NCBI RefSeq assembly: GCF_020150815.1
Contig: NZ_CP083723.1
Coordinates: 2,976,001 to 3,040,000 of the forward strand
DNA from: Haloprofundus salilacus
GTDB lineage: Archaea > Halobacteriota > Halobacteria > Halobacteriales > Haloferacaceae
Direction: 5' to 3'
DNA length: 64,000 nt
Part shown: one piece after another, positions 47,171 through 57,845 of the stretch
Layout: each line of letters opens with the position of its first letter
Numbering within the stretch: position 1 is the stretch's first letter
Made by a program: the position numbers and the translations under genes
Notes under the pieces: generated by a model
Database searches by the model: none
What the model was told of the DNA's origin: nothing
What the model saw: only the letters and a program-made list of their open reading frames with translations

Positions 47171-47288
47171 CGCCCGATGCGAGTAAGGAAACGCCTTTGT
47201 CGCCGCGGGACCGGATTCCGGCTATGACCCCCTCGTCGCGTCTTCCGCCACGTCCGTTTCGATGCTCGACCGCGTTGGTGAGCGCCGA

Positions 47289-49628
47289 ATGAAGGTCGCA
47301 GACGCGATTCCGGAGTTCGCCGACGCGTTCGGCTTCGAGGAGTTCAACCGGATGCAGCGGGAGGCGCTGCCCGCCATCATGGAGCGAGACGAGAATCTCG
47401 TCGCCAGCGCGCCCACCGCCAGCGGCAAGACCGCGCTCGCCGAGCTCGCCATCTGCAAGTGCCTACGCGACGGCGGGACCGCGCTGTTCGTCGCCCCCCT
47501 CCGCGCGCTCACCAACGAGAAGGAGGCCGAGTGGGACCGCTTCGAGTCGATGGGCTACTCGGTGTACGTCGTTACCGGCGAGCGCGATCTGAACCCGCGC
47601 CGCGCCGAGCGCGCCGACATCCTCGTGATGACGCCCGAGAAGACCGACTCGGCGACGCGCAAACACGACTCCGCACGCTACTCGTTCATCGCCGACGTGA
47701 CCTGCTGCGTCATCGACGAGGTCCACCTGCTCGATTCGGAGTCTCGGGGCGGCGTCCTCGAAGTGACCATCTCACGCCTGCGGCGCATCTGCGACCCGCG
47801 CGTCATCGCGCTGTCGGCGACGATGCCGAACGTCGACGACGTGGCGGCGTGGCTCGACGCGGTCCCGGAGACGACGTTCGAGTTCGGCGACGACTACCGC
47901 CCCGTCGACCTGCACGCGGGCGTCCAGACGTACACCCACGGCGAGAACTCCTTCGCCGATAAGTACCGACGGCTCTACCGGGCGCTCGACCTCGCGGAAC
48001 CGCACATCCGCGACGGCGGCCAGTCGCTCGTCTTCGTCGCCTCCAGACAGGACGCCGCGATGGCGGCGGCGAAGGCCCGCGACGAGATCGGTCAGCGCGA
48101 CATCCCCATCGGCTCCCGCGGCGACTACGAGTTCCACACCGACGCCAAGGAAGTGAAGAACGACAGCCTCCGGAAGGCCGTGCTCGACGGCGTCGGTTTC
48201 CACCACGCCGGCCTCGCGAAAGAGGACCGCAACCGCGTCGAAAAGTGGTTCAAAGAGGGGAAAATTCAGCTGCTGTTCTCCACGTCGACGCTCGCGTGGG
48301 GCGTCAACCTCCCCGCCCGCTGCGTCGTCATCCGCGACACGAAACACCACGACCCGCTGGAGGGCGACGTGGACATCAGTCCGCTCGACGTGCTCCAGAT
48401 GCTCGGCCGCGCCGGACGCCCTGGCTACGACGACGTGGGCTACGGCTGGGTCGTCTGCGACCGCTCGGAGGCCGACAAGTACCGCCGACTCCTGCGTGAG
48501 GGCAAGGAGATAGAGTCGCGACTCGCCTCGGACCTCGACTCACATCTCAACGCCGAAATCGCGATGGGAACCATCGCGGATCTAGACGACGTGATGTCGT
48601 GGCTGGAGACGACGTTCTACTACGTTCGCGCCGGGTCCAAGCCGGCAGAGTACGACTTCGAGGGACTCCGCGACCGGGTTCGAGACACGCTGGAGACGCT
48701 CGTCGAACGCGGCTTCGTCGAAACCGACGAGAGCCTCGCGGTGAATCCGACGACGCTCGGCCGCCTCGCCTCCAAGTACTACCTCAGACTGGAGACCTCC
48801 CGACGCTTCGCGAACCTCGCCGAACGCGACCGAATCGCCGTCGACGACGTGTTGGAGACCGTCGCGGGCGCGTCCGAGTTCGACAGCGTCTCGGCACGAC
48901 AGGCCGAGCAAGACGCCGTCGACTCGGTGCTCACCGGCGTCGACACGCCCCTCGAAGACGGCAACCGGAAGGTGCTCGCCATCCTCCACGCGGGGATGGC
49001 CGGGTCGACGCCCACCGACCTCAGAAGCGACGCGTGGGTCATCAGACAGAACGCGCTGCGACTGCTGGCGGCGCTCCGCGAGTTCCTCGACGAGTTCGCG
49101 GGGCCGCGAGCAGCGAACCTCGCCCGGCGCATCGAGGCGCGAGTCGAACACGGCGTCAGCCGCGACGCGGCGGCGCTCACTGCCGTCGACGGCATCGGGC
49201 CGACCCGCGCGAGCAAGTTGGCGACTGGCGGTCTCGCCTCCCCGGCGGACGTGGTCGACGCCGGCGTCGAGGAACTGACCCGCGCTGGTCTCTCCGCAGG
49301 CGTCGCCGAGCGCGTCGTCGAGCGCGCGAAGTCGTTGCCGCGAATCGAAATCGAGTGGGGTGCGTTCCCTGAAACCATCGCGACGGGCGAAAACGAGATG
49401 CGGGAGGTGACGGTCAAAAACGTCGGCGGCGCGGCGCGGACGGGTCTCCGCGTCACGGTCAACGGCGTCGAGATGAGTCAGAAGACGACCTATCTAGCCG
49501 ACCAGACGACCGTTCCGGTGGCCGTCTTCGGCGCGCAGGACGAACTCGAGTTCCGCATCGAGGCGACATTCCCCGAACTGCCGCTCGCGCCGGTGGTCGA
49601 CTCGCGCACCGTCGTCGTCGTCGAGTAG
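47289..49628 (+). CDS. Ski2/Hel308-like superfamily-2 DNA/RNA helicase with C-terminal Sec63-like unit
   Basis: A 779-residue SF2 helicase. Motif I APTASGKT is at 41-48, motif Ia VAPLRALTNEK follows, motif II DEVH is near 143, motif III LSATMPNV and motif VI QMLGRAGRPG are present. After the RecA pair come a winged helix, a ratchet-like helical bundle (RFANLAERDRI) and helix-hairpin-helix DGIGPTRASKL. The last 95 residues form an immunoglobulin/FN3-like domain (ENEMREVTVKNVGGAARTG) as in Sec63 units of Brr2/Mer3-type helicases, absent from classic Hel308. It may act at stalled forks or on RNA. Start ATG 47289. Confidence 0.85.
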   Translation: MKVADAIPEFADAFGFEEFNRMQREALPAIMERDENLVASAPTASGKTALAELAICKCLRDGGTALFVAPLRALTNEKEAEWDRFESMGYSVYVVTGERDLNPRRAERADILVMTPEKTDSATRKHDSARYSFIADVTCCVIDEVHLLDSESRGGVLEVTISRLRRICDPRVIALSATMPNVDDVAAWLDAVPETTFEFGDDYRPVDLHAGVQTYTHGENSFADKYRRLYRALDLAEPHIRDGGQSLVFVASRQDAAMAAAKARDEIGQRDIPIGSRGDYEFHTDAKEVKNDSLRKAVLDGVGFHHAGLAKEDRNRVEKWFKEGKIQLLFSTSTLAWGVNLPARCVVIRDTKHHDPLEGDVDISPLDVLQMLGRAGRPGYDDVGYGWVVCDRSEADKYRRLLREGKEIESRLASDLDSHLNAEIAMGTIADLDDVMSWLETTFYYVRAGSKPAEYDFEGLRDRVRDTLETLVERGFVETDESLAVNPTTLGRLASKYYLRLETSRRFANLAERDRIAVDDVLETVAGASEFDSVSARQAEQDAVDSVLTGVDTPLEDGNRKVLAILHAGMAGSTPTDLRSDAWVIRQNALRLLAALREFLDEFAGPRAANLARRIEARVEHGVSRDAAALTAVDGIGPTRASKLATGGLASPADVVDAGVEELTRAGLSAGVAERVVERAKSLPRIEIEWGAFPETIATGENEMREVTVKNVGGAARTGLRVTVNGVEMSQKTTYLADQTTVPVAVFGAQDELEFRIEATFPELPLAPVVDSRTVVVVE

Positions 49629-50578: not shown

Positions 50579-51658
50579 ATGACACGAACACGATTCACAA
50601 CGGTCTGTCTCGTCGTGCTGCTCTGTCTGACCGTCTCGCTCTCGCCTGCGGTGTCGACGGCGGCGCTCGGTCCCGACGCAGACAGCGGTTCGACGGTACA
50701 GCAAGTCGAGGACGATGACGGAGATGACGAGGACGATGACGGAGATGACGAGGACGACGATGAGACTGAGGACGAAGACGACGAAGATGCCGAGGACGAC
50801 GATGAGGAAGACGAGAACGACGAGGACAACGAAGACGAGGGTGAGGGAGACGATGAAGACGAAGACGACGGACCGGGCAACGCCGGTAACGGGAACGGTC
50901 CGCCGGACGACGCCGGAGACGGACCTCCCGACCACGCCAGTAACCCGGACAACGAGGACGATGACGACAGAGCCGCCGCGGCAGACACGGCTGACGACGA
51001 ATCCAACGCCGCCGGGACGCCCGTAGAGACCGAAGAATCGGCGTCGGCGAGCGCCTCACAGTCGACGCCGGGCCAGCAAGAAACGCCGACGTCGACGCCG
51101 ACTTCCACACCGACGAGTACCCCAACCTCTACCCCAACCTCTACGCCGACGTCGACGCCGACGAGTACCCCAACCTCTACGCCGACGTCGACGCCGACGA
51201 GTACCGCGACGGCCACCGATGCGCCGACATCCACCCTCACGACCACCGACCAGAATGGGAGTTCGCCGGGCACTACCAGGGTCGTGAACCTCTCGGTGAA
51301 CCGCTCGACGGTTCCCTCGGGCGACCCGGTGGCGTTCGTCGCGACGGTGCGGAACCCGACCGCGCAACCGGTGAACCACACCGTTCGACTCCGCCTGTTC
51401 GGCGAAGTCGCGGACGCGGAGACGATCACTGTCCCCGCGGGCGGGACGGCGACGGTCCGGTTCTCACGGAATATCCTCGCGACGGGAGCGCATACCGCCC
51501 GCGTCGGTAGCCAGACGGCCACCGTCACCGTCACCGAGTCGCAGGTCGCGACCGAGGACCCCGAAACGACGAGTTCGACCGGCGTTCCCGGATTCGGCGT
51601 CGGCGTCGCGCTCGCGGCGCTACTGGCGATTGCGGCGATTGCGCTCCGGCGCGAGTGA
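50579..51658 (+). CDS. PGF-CTERM surface glycoprotein with acidic and Thr-Pro-Ser repeats
   Basis: A 359-residue secreted, cell-wall-associated protein. A classic signal peptide (about residues 1-29), a very acidic Asp/Glu segment (44-100), a Thr/Ser/Pro repeat (about 161-222, the O-glycosylated stalk type), an Ig-like domain of the CARDB kind (230-330), and a C-terminal PGFG motif with one hydrophobic helix and an RRE end. PGF-CTERM is recognised by archaeosortase A, which swaps the helix for a lipid. Repeats are visible at DNA level: 21 bp x2 (50708-50749) and 36 bp x2 (51133-51204). Confidence 0.9.
   Translation: MTRTRFTTVCLVVLLCLTVSLSPAVSTAALGPDADSGSTVQQVEDDDGDDEDDDGDDEDDDETEDEDDEDAEDDDEEDENDEDNEDEGEGDDEDEDDGPGNAGNGNGPPDDAGDGPPDHASNPDNEDDDDRAAAADTADDESNAAGTPVETEESASASASQSTPGQQETPTSTPTSTPTSTPTSTPTSTPTSTPTSTPTSTPTSTPTSTATATDAPTSTLTTTDQNGSSPGTTRVVNLSVNRSTVPSGDPVAFVATVRNPTAQPVNHTVRLRLFGEVADAETITVPAGGTATVRFSRNILATGAHTARVGSQTATVTVTESQVATEDPETTSSTGVPGFGVGVALAALLAIAAIALRRE
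50708..50749 (+). repeat. 21-bp perfect tandem duplication in the acidic segment
   Basis: GAGGACGATGACGGAGATGAC occurs twice back to back (50708-50728, 50729-50749). It encodes E-D-D-D-G-D-D units. Confidence 0.9.
51133..51204 (+). repeat. 36-bp perfect tandem duplication in the Thr-Pro-Ser stalk
   Basis: A 36-nt (12-codon) unit is repeated exactly at 51133-51168 and 51169-51204, encoding Pro-Thr-Ser-Thr blocks. The repeat has changed third positions only little, so copy number may vary between strains. Confidence 0.9.
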
Positions 51659-54429: not shown

Positions 54430-54990
54430 ATGTCCGAGGAGATGCGACTCTTCGCCGGTGACTGTACCCCGACGTTCGAAGGCGCGCGCGAGCAGACCCA
54501 GCGCGGTCACGTCGTCGTTCTCGTCAAACCCGACGGAACCGTCCTCGTCCACGACGCCGACGGCTACCAACCGGTCGCGTGGCTCACCCGCGCCGACGCG
54601 GTCACCGTTGAAGCCGATGAGAGCGGGTTCGCCGTGACCGCTCGAACCGACGACCAGACGCTCCGCATCGTCTCGAACACCGCGACCGGCCGCGCCAGCT
54701 ATCCCACTACTTCGGCTGGAATCCCGGTCGGCGGCTGCCCCGACTGCGGCGGTGCGCTGATTCAGACCGGCGGCGACGTTCGCTGTCTCGACTGCGAGGC
54801 GACGTACTCGCTACCCGCGGGCGCGGCCGTGCTCGCGGGGTGCGACGACTACCCCGCCTGCGACATGGCGTTCACGATACCGGCGGGCGTCGTCGTCGAC
54901 GACTGCGACTGCGGTCTCCCGGTTTTCGAGACGGCGCGCGGGCGACGGTGTCTCGACGGCACCTGCGAACGGTTTCGGGCCGAGGAATGA
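54430..54990 (+). CDS. NucS-like N-domain protein with zinc ribbons
   Basis: A 186-residue protein starting at ATG 54430 (MSEEMRLFAGDC). Residues 5-75 resemble the N-terminal beta-barrel of NucS/DUF91-type endonucleases (RLFAGDCTPTFEG, VVVLVKPDGTVLVHDADGYQPVAW). The C-terminal half holds cysteine pairs of zinc-ribbon type: CPDCGG and CLDCEA, then a second set with GCDDYPACDM and CDCGLP, as in topoisomerase C4 fingers. No nuclease catalytic motif is visible, so it is probably a DNA- or RNA-binding adaptor. It is 73 bp ahead of endA on the same strand. Confidence 0.75.
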   Translation: MSEEMRLFAGDCTPTFEGAREQTQRGHVVVLVKPDGTVLVHDADGYQPVAWLTRADAVTVEADESGFAVTARTDDQTLRIVSNTATGRASYPTTSAGIPVGGCPDCGGALIQTGGDVRCLDCEATYSLPAGAAVLAGCDDYPACDMAFTIPAGVVVDDCDCGLPVFETARGRRCLDGTCERFRAEE

Positions 54991-55062: not shown

Positions 55063-56136
55063 ATGCAGGGACACGCACGCGGCGACGCCGTCCGCGTCGG
55101 CGGCAACGCCCGCCAGCAGTTTCACGACGCGCGCGGCTACGGCTGTCCGGTCGAGGGAAACGAAATCGACCTGGCACCGGTAGAAGCCGCGCACCTCCTC
55201 TTTCGGGGCGACCTCGACGGCGTCGACGGCGACGGCTTTCGGGATTTTTTCGTCTCGGCGGCGCGCGACGAACCGCGCTTTACGCTCCGGTTTCTCGTCT
55301 ACGCCGACCTCCGCGAACGGGGCTTCTACCTCTCGCCGGCCCGCGACCCGTGGATCGAACCCGACATTGCGGGCGGCCCTGACGCCGCGGACGACCCCGA
55401 CTGCGACTTCGTCGTCTTCCCGCGCGGCAAGGACGCCGACGACGGCGTCGTCGAGTACCGCATCCGCGTCGTCGGCGAACGTGCGTCCGTCGCCGCCGCC
55501 GAGATGGCGGGCTACGTCTTCGCCGTCGTCGACGAGGAGAGCGAACTCACGTACCTGGAGGCGAGCGAGCACGCCTACGACGGCGAGACGACGTACGACC
55601 CGCCGACGGATCTGGAGGGGACTCTCCTCGACGACCGGGCGGTCTGCTGGGACGCGCCCGAGGACCTCTTCGAGTCGGGCTTCTACGGCCAACCGCTGAC
55701 CGGCCGCGACGCGGCTATCGAGAACGCGGTTCAACTCTCGCTGCTCGAAGCGGCGTCGCTCGTCGCCGACGGCGTGCTCTCGCTCGGCACCGACGACGAC
55801 TACGCCGCCGTCGGCGAACGCGGCCACGCTGTCGAAGGTGAACGGTTCGACCGCCGACTGCAGGTGTACGACGCGCTGCGCGAGCGAAACGTCGTCCCGA
55901 AGACGGGGTTCAAGTTCGGCGCGGACTTCCGGACGTACGCGACGGTCGAATCGGTTGAGGACCTCGGCCACTCGGAGACGCTCGTCCGCGTCGTCCGCCC
56001 GGACCACTCGTTCGCGCCACGGGACCTCTCGCTGGACGTTCGCCTCGCCGGCGGGGTTCGGAAGCGAATGGTTTTTGCGCTGACCGACGCCAACGAAGGC
56101 ATAGACTGGCTGTCGGTCGCTCGGCTGACGCCGTAA
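55063..56136 (+). CDS. endA: tRNA-intron endonuclease, two-repeat (long) form
   Basis: A 357-residue splicing endonuclease with two tandem endonuclease units. The catalytic triad lies in the C-terminal unit: Tyr292 (GADFRTY), His303 (GHSETLV) and Lys334 (VRKRM). The N-terminal unit has lost those residues, as in alpha2 enzymes of haloarchaea. It cuts bulge-helix-bulge junctions in pre-tRNA. trpS follows after 53 bp; haloarchaeal tRNA-Trp carries an intron, so this pairing is a known association. A box at about -28 supports the ATG. Confidence 0.95.
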   Translation: MQGHARGDAVRVGGNARQQFHDARGYGCPVEGNEIDLAPVEAAHLLFRGDLDGVDGDGFRDFFVSAARDEPRFTLRFLVYADLRERGFYLSPARDPWIEPDIAGGPDAADDPDCDFVVFPRGKDADDGVVEYRIRVVGERASVAAAEMAGYVFAVVDEESELTYLEASEHAYDGETTYDPPTDLEGTLLDDRAVCWDAPEDLFESGFYGQPLTGRDAAIENAVQLSLLEAASLVADGVLSLGTDDDYAAVGERGHAVEGERFDRRLQVYDALRERNVVPKTGFKFGADFRTYATVESVEDLGHSETLVRVVRPDHSFAPRDLSLDVRLAGGVRKRMVFALTDANEGIDWLSVARLTP

Positions 56137-56189: not shown

Positions 56190-57845
56190 ATGACACGAGA
56201 CACAGACCCCGAGACGACGGAGGCGCCGAAGACGAGGGTACGACCCGACGGCGACGACCGAGCACGAACGGACGGCGGAGAGACAGAGACCGACACGGCG
56301 GGAGCCGACGACGTCGCACTCGACCCGTGGGGCTCGTCGACCGTCTCCGACTACCGAAAACTGTTCGAGGAGTTCGGTATCGAGCAGTTCGACGAACTGC
56401 TGGACGAGGTGCCGAACCCGCACTACCTGATGCGTCGCGGCGTCATCTTCGGCCACCGAGACTACCGCCCCGTGGCCGACGCGATGCGCAACGACGAGGA
56501 GTTCGCCGTCCTCTCCGGATTCATGCCGACAGGCGACCCCCACATCGGCCACAAACTCGTCTTCGACGAGATAATCTGGCACCAAAAGCAGGGCGGCGAC
56601 GCCTTCGGTCTCATCGCCGACCTCGAAGCCCACTCCGCTCGCGGCCTCTCGTGGGACGAGATAGACGAACACGCCCGCGACTACCTGCTCTCGCTCATCG
56701 CGCTCGGCTTCGACGCCGAGGACGGCGAACTGTACCGCCAGTCGGAGAACCGCGAACTCCAGGATTTGGCCTTCGAACTCGGCTCGAAGGCGAACTTCTC
56801 GGAGTTCGAGGCTATCTACGGCTTCGGCGGCGAGACGAGCGTCTCGCACATGCAGTCGGTCGTCACGCAGATGGCCGACATCCTCTACCCGCAGTTGGAC
56901 GAACCGAAGCCGACGGTCATCCCCGTCGGTCCCGACCAGGACCCCCACGTACGCCTCGCGCGCGACCTCGCCTCGCGGATGCGTTTCTTCGGCGTCACCG
57001 AGGCGTACGCGAGCTTCGAACTCGACGACCGGGAGAAAGCACTCGTTGCCGCCTGCTACGAACACCTCGACCCCGCCGATTTCGACGACCATGACCTGCG
57101 CTGCGTCCACGTCGCGGAGTTCCTCGACGACGTGACGCCCGCGGAACTCGACGAACTCGGCGTCGTTGTCGACTCGGAGACGGTCAACTCGGCGAGAGCG
57201 AAACTCGACGAGGCGGGCATGGAACCGCTCCGCCCGCGCGTCCGGTTTCTCGACCGCAACGCGACCGAAGACGCGTTCGACGCGCTCATTGACGCCGTCG
57301 ACGGCGAGAAGCGCGTCTTCGAGGAACATATCGACGCCTTTGACCTCTCCGCCGAGGAGGCCGAGGAACTCGCCCAACGGGTCGAGATGGAGAACGGCGG
57401 CTACGGCTTCCTCCCGCCGTCGTCCATCTACCACCGCTTCATGACGGGCCTCACCGGCGGGAAGATGTCCTCGTCGATTCCGGCGAGTCACATCAGCCTG
57501 CTCGACGACCCGCAGGAGGGGTACGACAAGGTCAAATCGGCGACGACCGGCGGCCGCGAGACGGCCGAACTCCAGCGCGAACTCGGTGGCGAGGCGGACA
57601 AGTGTCCCGTCTACGAACTGTACGCCTACCTGCTGTCGGGCGACGACGACGAATTTGCGAAAAAAGTGTACGACGAGTGCGTCGGCGGCGAGCGCCTCTG
57701 CGGCGGTTGCAAGGAGCAGGCGGCCGAACTGATGTACGAGTTCCTCGAAGACCACCAGGAGAAACGCGAGGAGGCCGAGGAACTGCTCGACTCGCTGGAC
57801 ATCGACCTCGACTCGAAGCGAAGGGGTCCCGGCGGCGAGCACTGA
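56190..57845 (+). CDS. trpS: Tryptophanyl-tRNA synthetase
   Basis: A 551-residue class I synthetase. The HIGH-type signature PHIGH is at 117-121 and KMSSS at 425-429. The archaeal/eukaryotic type of catalytic core is present (GFMPTGDPHIGHKL, PVGPDQDPHVRLARDLA). An N-terminal extension of about 45 residues is disordered, Arg/Asp/Thr-rich. Residues near 320-350 (KRVFEEHIDAFDLS) form an insertion. It directly follows endA, which is needed to make mature tRNA-Trp. Confidence 0.95.
   Translation: MTRDTDPETTEAPKTRVRPDGDDRARTDGGETETDTAGADDVALDPWGSSTVSDYRKLFEEFGIEQFDELLDEVPNPHYLMRRGVIFGHRDYRPVADAMRNDEEFAVLSGFMPTGDPHIGHKLVFDEIIWHQKQGGDAFGLIADLEAHSARGLSWDEIDEHARDYLLSLIALGFDAEDGELYRQSENRELQDLAFELGSKANFSEFEAIYGFGGETSVSHMQSVVTQMADILYPQLDEPKPTVIPVGPDQDPHVRLARDLASRMRFFGVTEAYASFELDDREKALVAACYEHLDPADFDDHDLRCVHVAEFLDDVTPAELDELGVVVDSETVNSARAKLDEAGMEPLRPRVRFLDRNATEDAFDALIDAVDGEKRVFEEHIDAFDLSAEEAEELAQRVEMENGGYGFLPPSSIYHRFMTGLTGGKMSSSIPASHISLLDDPQEGYDKVKSATTGGRETAELQRELGGEADKCPVYELYAYLLSGDDDEFAKKVYDECVGGERLCGGCKEQAAELMYEFLEDHQEKREEAEELLDSLDIDLDSKRRGPGGEH

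Follow-up and report, generated by a model that had tools for sequence, protein, structure and literature searches.

A Ski2-like helicase encoded in a 64,000-nucleotide stretch of Haloprofundus salilacus DNA (the window, to which all positions below refer) raises two questions: is the protein a form of the archaeal helicase Hel308 or a relative of the eukaryotic helicases Brr2 and ASCC3, and what does it act on? Its open reading frame at 47289-49628 of the plus strand has no internal stops and is divided as follows:

47289..49628, plus strand: Sec63-cassette Ski2-like helicase, 779 aa, stop included (open reading frame, Pfam, orthologue-level matches in haloarchaea)
47289..48503, plus strand: RecA1 and RecA2 core, residues 1-405, borders approximate (motifs, Pfam DEAD and Helicase_C, AlphaFold model)
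48504..48746, plus strand: winged-helix domain of the SNRNP200 type, residues 406-486 (Pfam SNRNP200_wHTH, PF23445, at residues 409-483 with 46.5 bits against a cut-off of 27)
48747..49103, plus strand: Sec63 helical bundle, residues 487-605 (AlphaFold model; Pfam Sec63, PF02889, at residues 487-696 with 79.1 bits against a cut-off of 25, spanning 156 of 252 model positions)
49104..49340, plus strand: helix-hairpin-helix (HHH) region, residues 606-684 (Pfam HHH_5 at residues 629-681 with 35.9 bits against a cut-off of 27)
49341..49625, plus strand: terminal Ig/FN3-like beta sandwich, residues 685-779 (AlphaFold models, fold matches)

The SF2 motifs of the helicase are intact (APTASGKT, DEVH, SATMPN, FHHAGL, TLAWGVNLPA, and QMLGRAGRP), and Pfam DEAD and Helicase_C each exceed their cut-offs in the core. 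The start at 47289 is provisional, with another in-frame ATG at 47262; among 76 haloarchaeal orthologues, an upstream stop precedes any further start codon in 16, and a further upstream start codon is present in 48. The order of domains that the original prediction had read from the sequence, namely core, SNRNP200-type winged helix, helical bundle, HHH, and terminal beta sandwich, as in Sec63 units, is borne out by Pfam and AlphaFold. The protein is a single-cassette Brr2/ASCC3-type (Sec63-type) Ski2-like ATPase and is presumed to be a 3′-5′ helicase. Its 779 residues hold one cassette only, not the tandem pair of Brr2 or ASCC3 proper, and it is therefore classed as a relative of these enzymes rather than as one of them.

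The full-length AlphaFold model, built on 53 aligned rows, has a mean pLDDT of 90.4. VIA-align places model residues 1..779 on residues 478-1314 of yeast Brr2 with a Z score of 35.8 and an rmsd of 5.7, aligning 761 of the 779 residues, so that the match to the Brr2 cassette is full-length and includes the terminal domain. The Hel308 chains listed by VIA-align end at model residues 646-685, in line with the expectation that Hel308 stops after the HHH whereas this helicase continues. Their Z scores (31-34) are of the same order as that of Brr2 because the remainder of the fold is common to both.

The C-terminal segment had been taken for a complete extra domain that is Ig/FN3-like. This is borne out: residues 686-778 of the full-length model are all-beta with eight strands, and the last 100 residues, modelled separately, again form an eight-stranded Ig-type sandwich (pLDDT of 96.1). 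For the terminal domain alone, the top fold match is a CARDB domain (Z of 12.0, 2.2 A, 99 aligned), and the 50 entries listed in that comparison include no Brr2 chain; the matches thus uphold “Ig/FN3-like” for this predicted Ig-fold sandwich but do not single out the FN3 subtype. Foldseek returns 14 matches to the same domain at E ≤ 0.001, two of which are Brr2 chains (TMq 0.70-0.71). A passage of a paper on ASCC3 names the terminal domain of its cassette immunoglobulin-like (PMC10076317).

Haloarchaea encode this helicase almost without exception, with orthologue-level matches in 115 of 116 genomes (one of them split across two contigs) and in 386 of the 391 genomes of a larger set. It is also present in 7/7 genomes sampled of one methanogen-like class (here the peat group), in 2/4 sampled of another class (here Methanocella-like), and in 6 of 195 Asgard genomes, where Asgard denotes the phylum of the Freyarchaeota record, Borrarchaeum included. 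The Asgard count excludes a seventh genome (G373), whose match of 20 bits is under the cut-off and lies at a Hel308 locus. Other Halobacteriota in a 294-genome sample of the phylum give weak matches only, mostly over the HHH and at no more than 32.5 bits among the matches listed. The scan of genome contigs for relatives covered at least 594 stretches, with the best 80 of 249 relatives, and among the 14 control genomes, to which coverage of bacteria and further archaeal phyla was confined, Pfam Sec63 matches in Haloferax volcanii only. A plasmid-borne gene was considered and discarded, with no match over 80% of the helicase among 72,556 plasmids (E ≤ 1e-20). One Borrarchaeum genome (G358) carries two Sec63-cassette copies (L049 and L151), each with zinc ribbons.

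About 4.8 kb beyond the helicase, the window encodes a putative partner protein, followed by two conserved neighbours:

54442..54990, plus strand: putative partner with NucS_N and zinc ribbon, about 60 internal residues missing in frame, start provisional (NucS_N with 34.4 against 23.9 bits, partner HMM, alignment)
55063..56136, plus strand: EndA, tRNA-splicing endonuclease (NCBIfam with 519 bits against a cut-off of 383; Pfam)
56190..57845, plus strand: TrpRS (NCBIfam with 1021.7 bits against a cut-off of 891)

In haloarchaea, the partner has about 240 residues, consists of a NucS_N domain and then zinc ribbons, and is encoded near the helicase. NucS_N exceeds its cut-off in all four partners scanned, and a topoisomerase-type zinc ribbon does so in one and falls below it in three. 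The N-terminal, PH-like NucS_N domain is the only part shared with NucS/EndoMS: the full-length NucS model is matched by its N-terminal part only, at 38 against 216 bits, no nuclease domain is present, and zinc ribbons replace it, so the partner is not classed as NucS/EndoMS. The partner HMM was built only from 17 free haloarchaeal proteins, the window's included, and the window's protein, itself a row of that training set, matches it in two pieces (model positions 7-146 and 206-256). The residues missing from the window's gene belong to the zinc region; the four genomes of the same genus that were sampled match the whole model.

The helicase and the NucS_N/zinc protein are linked in three ways: by gene order, by occurrence in the same genomes, and by fusions that differ between lineages. 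Of 76 haloarchaeal helicase loci scanned, 65 of them with both flanks 6 kb or longer, 44 have a free partner gene near the helicase (16 of these being HMM training rows), against a chance expectation estimated at about 0.5%. The scan detected no partner close by in the remaining 32 loci, some of which run into a contig edge. At E ≤ 1e-25, it is present in 377 of the 391 haloarchaea, and it never occurs there without the helicase (0/391); nine of the 386 helicase-bearing genomes have no partner at this threshold. All five haloarchaea that have no helicase also have no partner (Fisher 2.7e-8, kinship ignored), which amounts to few independent events because three of the five come from a single family and another genome, in which the genes are probably linked, is 85% complete. 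Four haloarchaeal genomes without the two genes (G021, G655, G723, and G820) measure 1.9-2.3 Mb, belong to families f5 and f36, and are 88-98% complete. Across the 294-genome phylum sample, partner-HMM matches above 100 bits are confined to haloarchaea and all seven peat-group genomes.

Outside the haloarchaea, parts of the partner are found on the helicase itself. The zinc half of the partner HMM matches the helicase's own C-terminus in five copies from Asgards (1e-24 to 2e-38) and, in the peat group, at each of the five loci read, which come from four genomes (3e-34 to 6e-36). The NucS_N half matches two Methanocella-like helicases (9e-10 and 8e-12), which carry C-terminal NucS_N and HRDC domains (L042:2584-5622 and L043:3248-6238). 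Each half of the partner thus occurs on its own as a fusion to this helicase, in different lineages. In two of seven Asgard places the zinc part was not seen; the match in one (G374) lies at a contig edge, and the other (G420) has a stop inside.

Of the 76 haloarchaeal loci, 39 have EndA close to the helicase and 33 a strong TrpRS match, four of 37 TrpRS matches being excluded as weak (about 1e-5 to 1e-6); partner, EndA, and TrpRS are all nearby in 28. Wherever the contig suffices in the peat group (three genomes), EndA and TrpRS both adjoin the helicase, and TrpRS is immediately upstream of it in one Asgard. An XPD-type helicase gene adjoins one of the Borrarchaeum Sec63 copies (Pfam) and a similar-looking open reading frame the other, and XPB- and Bax1-like proteins, identified by reading open reading frames, adjoin the peat-group gene. 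Part of the synteny may be plain conservation of the region, because the surroundings of the helicase also repeatedly include genes read as LipA (23 of 41 loci), HAD phosphatase (22), and MATE transporter (20).

The reading that we prefer, with a probability of about 0.5, is that of a single-cassette motor working with a NucS_N/zinc clamp, which would resemble ASCC3-TRIP4 and would most likely act on damaged or stalled DNA. By the precedent of NucS, the NucS_N domain would bind nucleic acid. The partner would dock on the helicase cassette through its zinc ribbons and hold NucS_N at the entry or exit of the strand, much as the second domain of TRIP4 is held on ASCC3. The motor would draw one strand through a ring of RecA domains, winged helix, helical bundle, and Ig domain, as ASCC3 does, and its target would be damaged or stalled DNA in repair or fork restart, with RNA as a possible substrate.

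The model is drawn by analogy. The archaeal helicase has the same cassette order as ASCC3/Slh1, albeit in one cassette instead of two, and its partner would, like that of ASCC3, combine zinc-binding elements with a second domain. This partner, made of NucS_N and zinc ribbons, is likened to TRIP4 by domain make-up, not by homology. According to passages of PMC10076317, TRIP4 docks on ASCC3 through its zinc finger domain and DNA unwinding is then 2.3-fold faster; a preprint describes ASCC3 as unwinding DNA at stalled forks (PMC12330601). Weighing against the model are the loci and genomes in which no partner was found, the small number of independent co-losses, the shortened zinc region of the window's own partner, the topoisomerase-type ribbon scoring below its cut-off in three of four partners, and the partner's lack of a nuclease domain.

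DNA is somewhat more probably the substrate than RNA, the odds being about even for DNA and somewhat lower for RNA. Pointers to DNA are the fused NucS_N and HRDC domains, the topoisomerase-type zinc ribbon of one partner in four, and repair-type neighbours; pointers to RNA are the EndA and TrpRS neighbours and the analogy with TRIP4. The alternative that survives best, though only as a tentative second choice, makes the helicase an RNA or translation motor, which would either do in archaea what Slh1/ASCC3 does in rescuing ribosomes or assist tRNA processing together with EndA and TrpRS. It draws on the recurrence of these two genes in haloarchaea, the peat group, and one Asgard, and on the work of Brr2 and Slh1 on RNA or ribosomes. 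Passages of the ASCC3 paper fit it as well, in that the unwinding activity of ASCC3 extends to RNA and TRIP4 is linked to transcription and ribosome quality control, with no effect on alkylation repair (PMC10076317). However, EndA and TrpRS may represent an old conserved neighbourhood in which LipA, HAD phosphatase, and MATE genes recur likewise, and the fused HRDC and NucS_N domains, the topoisomerase-type ribbon, and the repair-type neighbours in other lineages speak against RNA.

A reading of the helicase as a second, divergent Hel308 (Hel308b), redundant in role with the first, is improbable. The two proteins do share a Ski2-like core, motif IVa (FHHAGL), and the order of winged helix, bundle, and HHH. 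The core is 39% identical to that of the Hel308 of the same genome, and the top four NCBIfam matches of the helicase are Hel308-type DNA helicase models. All four, however, fall far under their cut-offs (the best with 388 against 887 bits), and the NCBIfam equivalog model for Hel308 proper scores 251 bits against a cut-off of 1200. Helicase_dom4_arc (PF21280), which is a feature of Hel308, is not among the ten Pfam matches of the helicase at E ≤ 1, although it is present, together with HTH_61 and without a Sec63 match, in two further proteins of the genome, the canonical Hel308 (L002) and, as the third of the set, a shorter Hel308-type paralogue (L003). The shorter paralogue (L003:1105-3021) has 638 aa; its domain 4 extends to the C-terminus, and it has no HHH match at E ≤ 0.1.

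Scores for the two halves of the protein likewise separate it from Hel308. The post-core half (residues 405-779) reaches 104.6 bits with ASCC3 and 86.6 bits with human Brr2 when both cassettes are summed, 56.4 and 45.4 bits with the best single cassettes, and 21-25 bits with Hel308. The core half scores 245 bits with the second cassette of ASCC3 and 214 bits with Hel308. ASCC3 is the top-scoring relative in the PDB for the whole helicase and for each half, with scores summed over its two cassettes.

Phylogenetic trees of Brr2, ASCC3, Slh1, Hel308, and archaeal cassettes give the same picture. In a 48-row tree, all 16 Hel308 rows are split from the Sec63 rows by a long branch (100/100). When ASH-Ski2-like and YprA-like outgroups are included, a Sec63 clade of 27 rows is recovered with support of 95/97; between these two trees, one long-branched row (L153) and four haloarchaeal rows were removed and the columns were narrowed. 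One outgroup (L006) gave a long-branch warning, and in the tree rebuilt without this longest branch support for the Sec63 clade is 100/100. Hel308 forms a single group with 47/95 in the tree with outgroups and 97/93 in the rebuilt one. A tree forced to unite the haloarchaeal cassette and Hel308 is worse by 102 log units (p-AU of 7e-7). The helicase is thus in one clade with Brr2, ASCC3, and Slh1, apart from Hel308, as a tree had been expected to decide, and a second, divergent Hel308 is rejected as its kinship by the 100/100 split and the AU test. Of the two outcomes that would have told against the original prediction, a final segment unlike FN3 and a place inside ordinary Hel308, neither arose. 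The suggestion that it might be an archaeal link between Hel308 and the Brr2/Mer3 group fails on the Brr2 side, as the helicase lies within the Sec63 clade, a long branch away from the 16 Hel308 rows.

Within the Sec63-cassette clade, the helicase belongs to one of several archaeal lineages that stand alongside the eukaryotic branch. Asgard rows group with eukaryotes with 81/93 in the 48-row tree and 39/63 in the tree with outgroups, and because of this inconsistency an Asgard sister of the eukaryotes is not claimed. Brr2/SNRNP200 shares its wHTH and Sec63 domains with the archaeal protein, which differs in having a single cassette; to our knowledge, haloarchaea have no spliceosome. The archaeal RNA helicase ASH-Ski2 has a Ski2-like core too but falls outside the Sec63 clade, and its copy in the H. 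salilacus genome is likely L005. Three Asgard proteins (L162, L163, and L165) form a Ski2-like group that clusters with this likely ASH-Ski2 (97/83 in the rebuilt tree) and match Helicase_dom4_arc only partially.

Acquisition of the archaeal copies from eukaryotes would suit their sparseness in Asgards (6/195) and patchiness elsewhere but is highly improbable, given that the six eukaryotic rows of the 48-row tree form a separate clade (100/99) with no archaeal row inside, that all archaeal copies read are single-cassette, and that zinc ribbons are common to Asgards and Halobacteriota. A broader scenario, which we regard as doubtful, would make the Brr2/ASCC3 cassette an archaeal invention that, when Asgards and Halobacteriota still had a common history, was already a two-part DNA-repair motor of a single Sec63 cassette and a zinc-ribbon/NucS_N clamp. 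Eukaryotes would then have duplicated this cassette and put it to use in splicing and in the rescue of ribosomes, with the zinc-finger partner kept in the ASCC3 line.

As Pfam Sec63 already matches in Haloferax volcanii, the helicase is not new to databases. Among publications on archaeal Ski2-like helicases, Batista 2024 is reportedly the most pertinent. A family of archaeal Sec63-cassette helicases may well already be in print; none of the literature titles and abstract openings surveyed names one. In the excerpted part of a review on H. volcanii repair, Hel308 is HVO_0014 and the words Sec63 and Brr2 are absent. As far as could be judged, what is new is the partner and its fusion in alternate halves, along with the synteny and the occurrence of the helicase in Asgards.

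One and the same cassette, in doubled form, makes up Brr2, which is essential for splicing, and ASCC3, which functions in the repair of DNA and the rescue of ribosomes. A near-universal single-cassette relative in haloarchaea, with some Asgard kin, makes the origin of this cassette and its first substrate testable by Haloferax genetics, and a partner that is alternately fused or free predicts a specific complex with the helicase. In the window, positions 50579-51658 of the plus strand encode an acidic low-complexity protein with a TPTSTPTS repeat, which is predicted by eye to be secreted.
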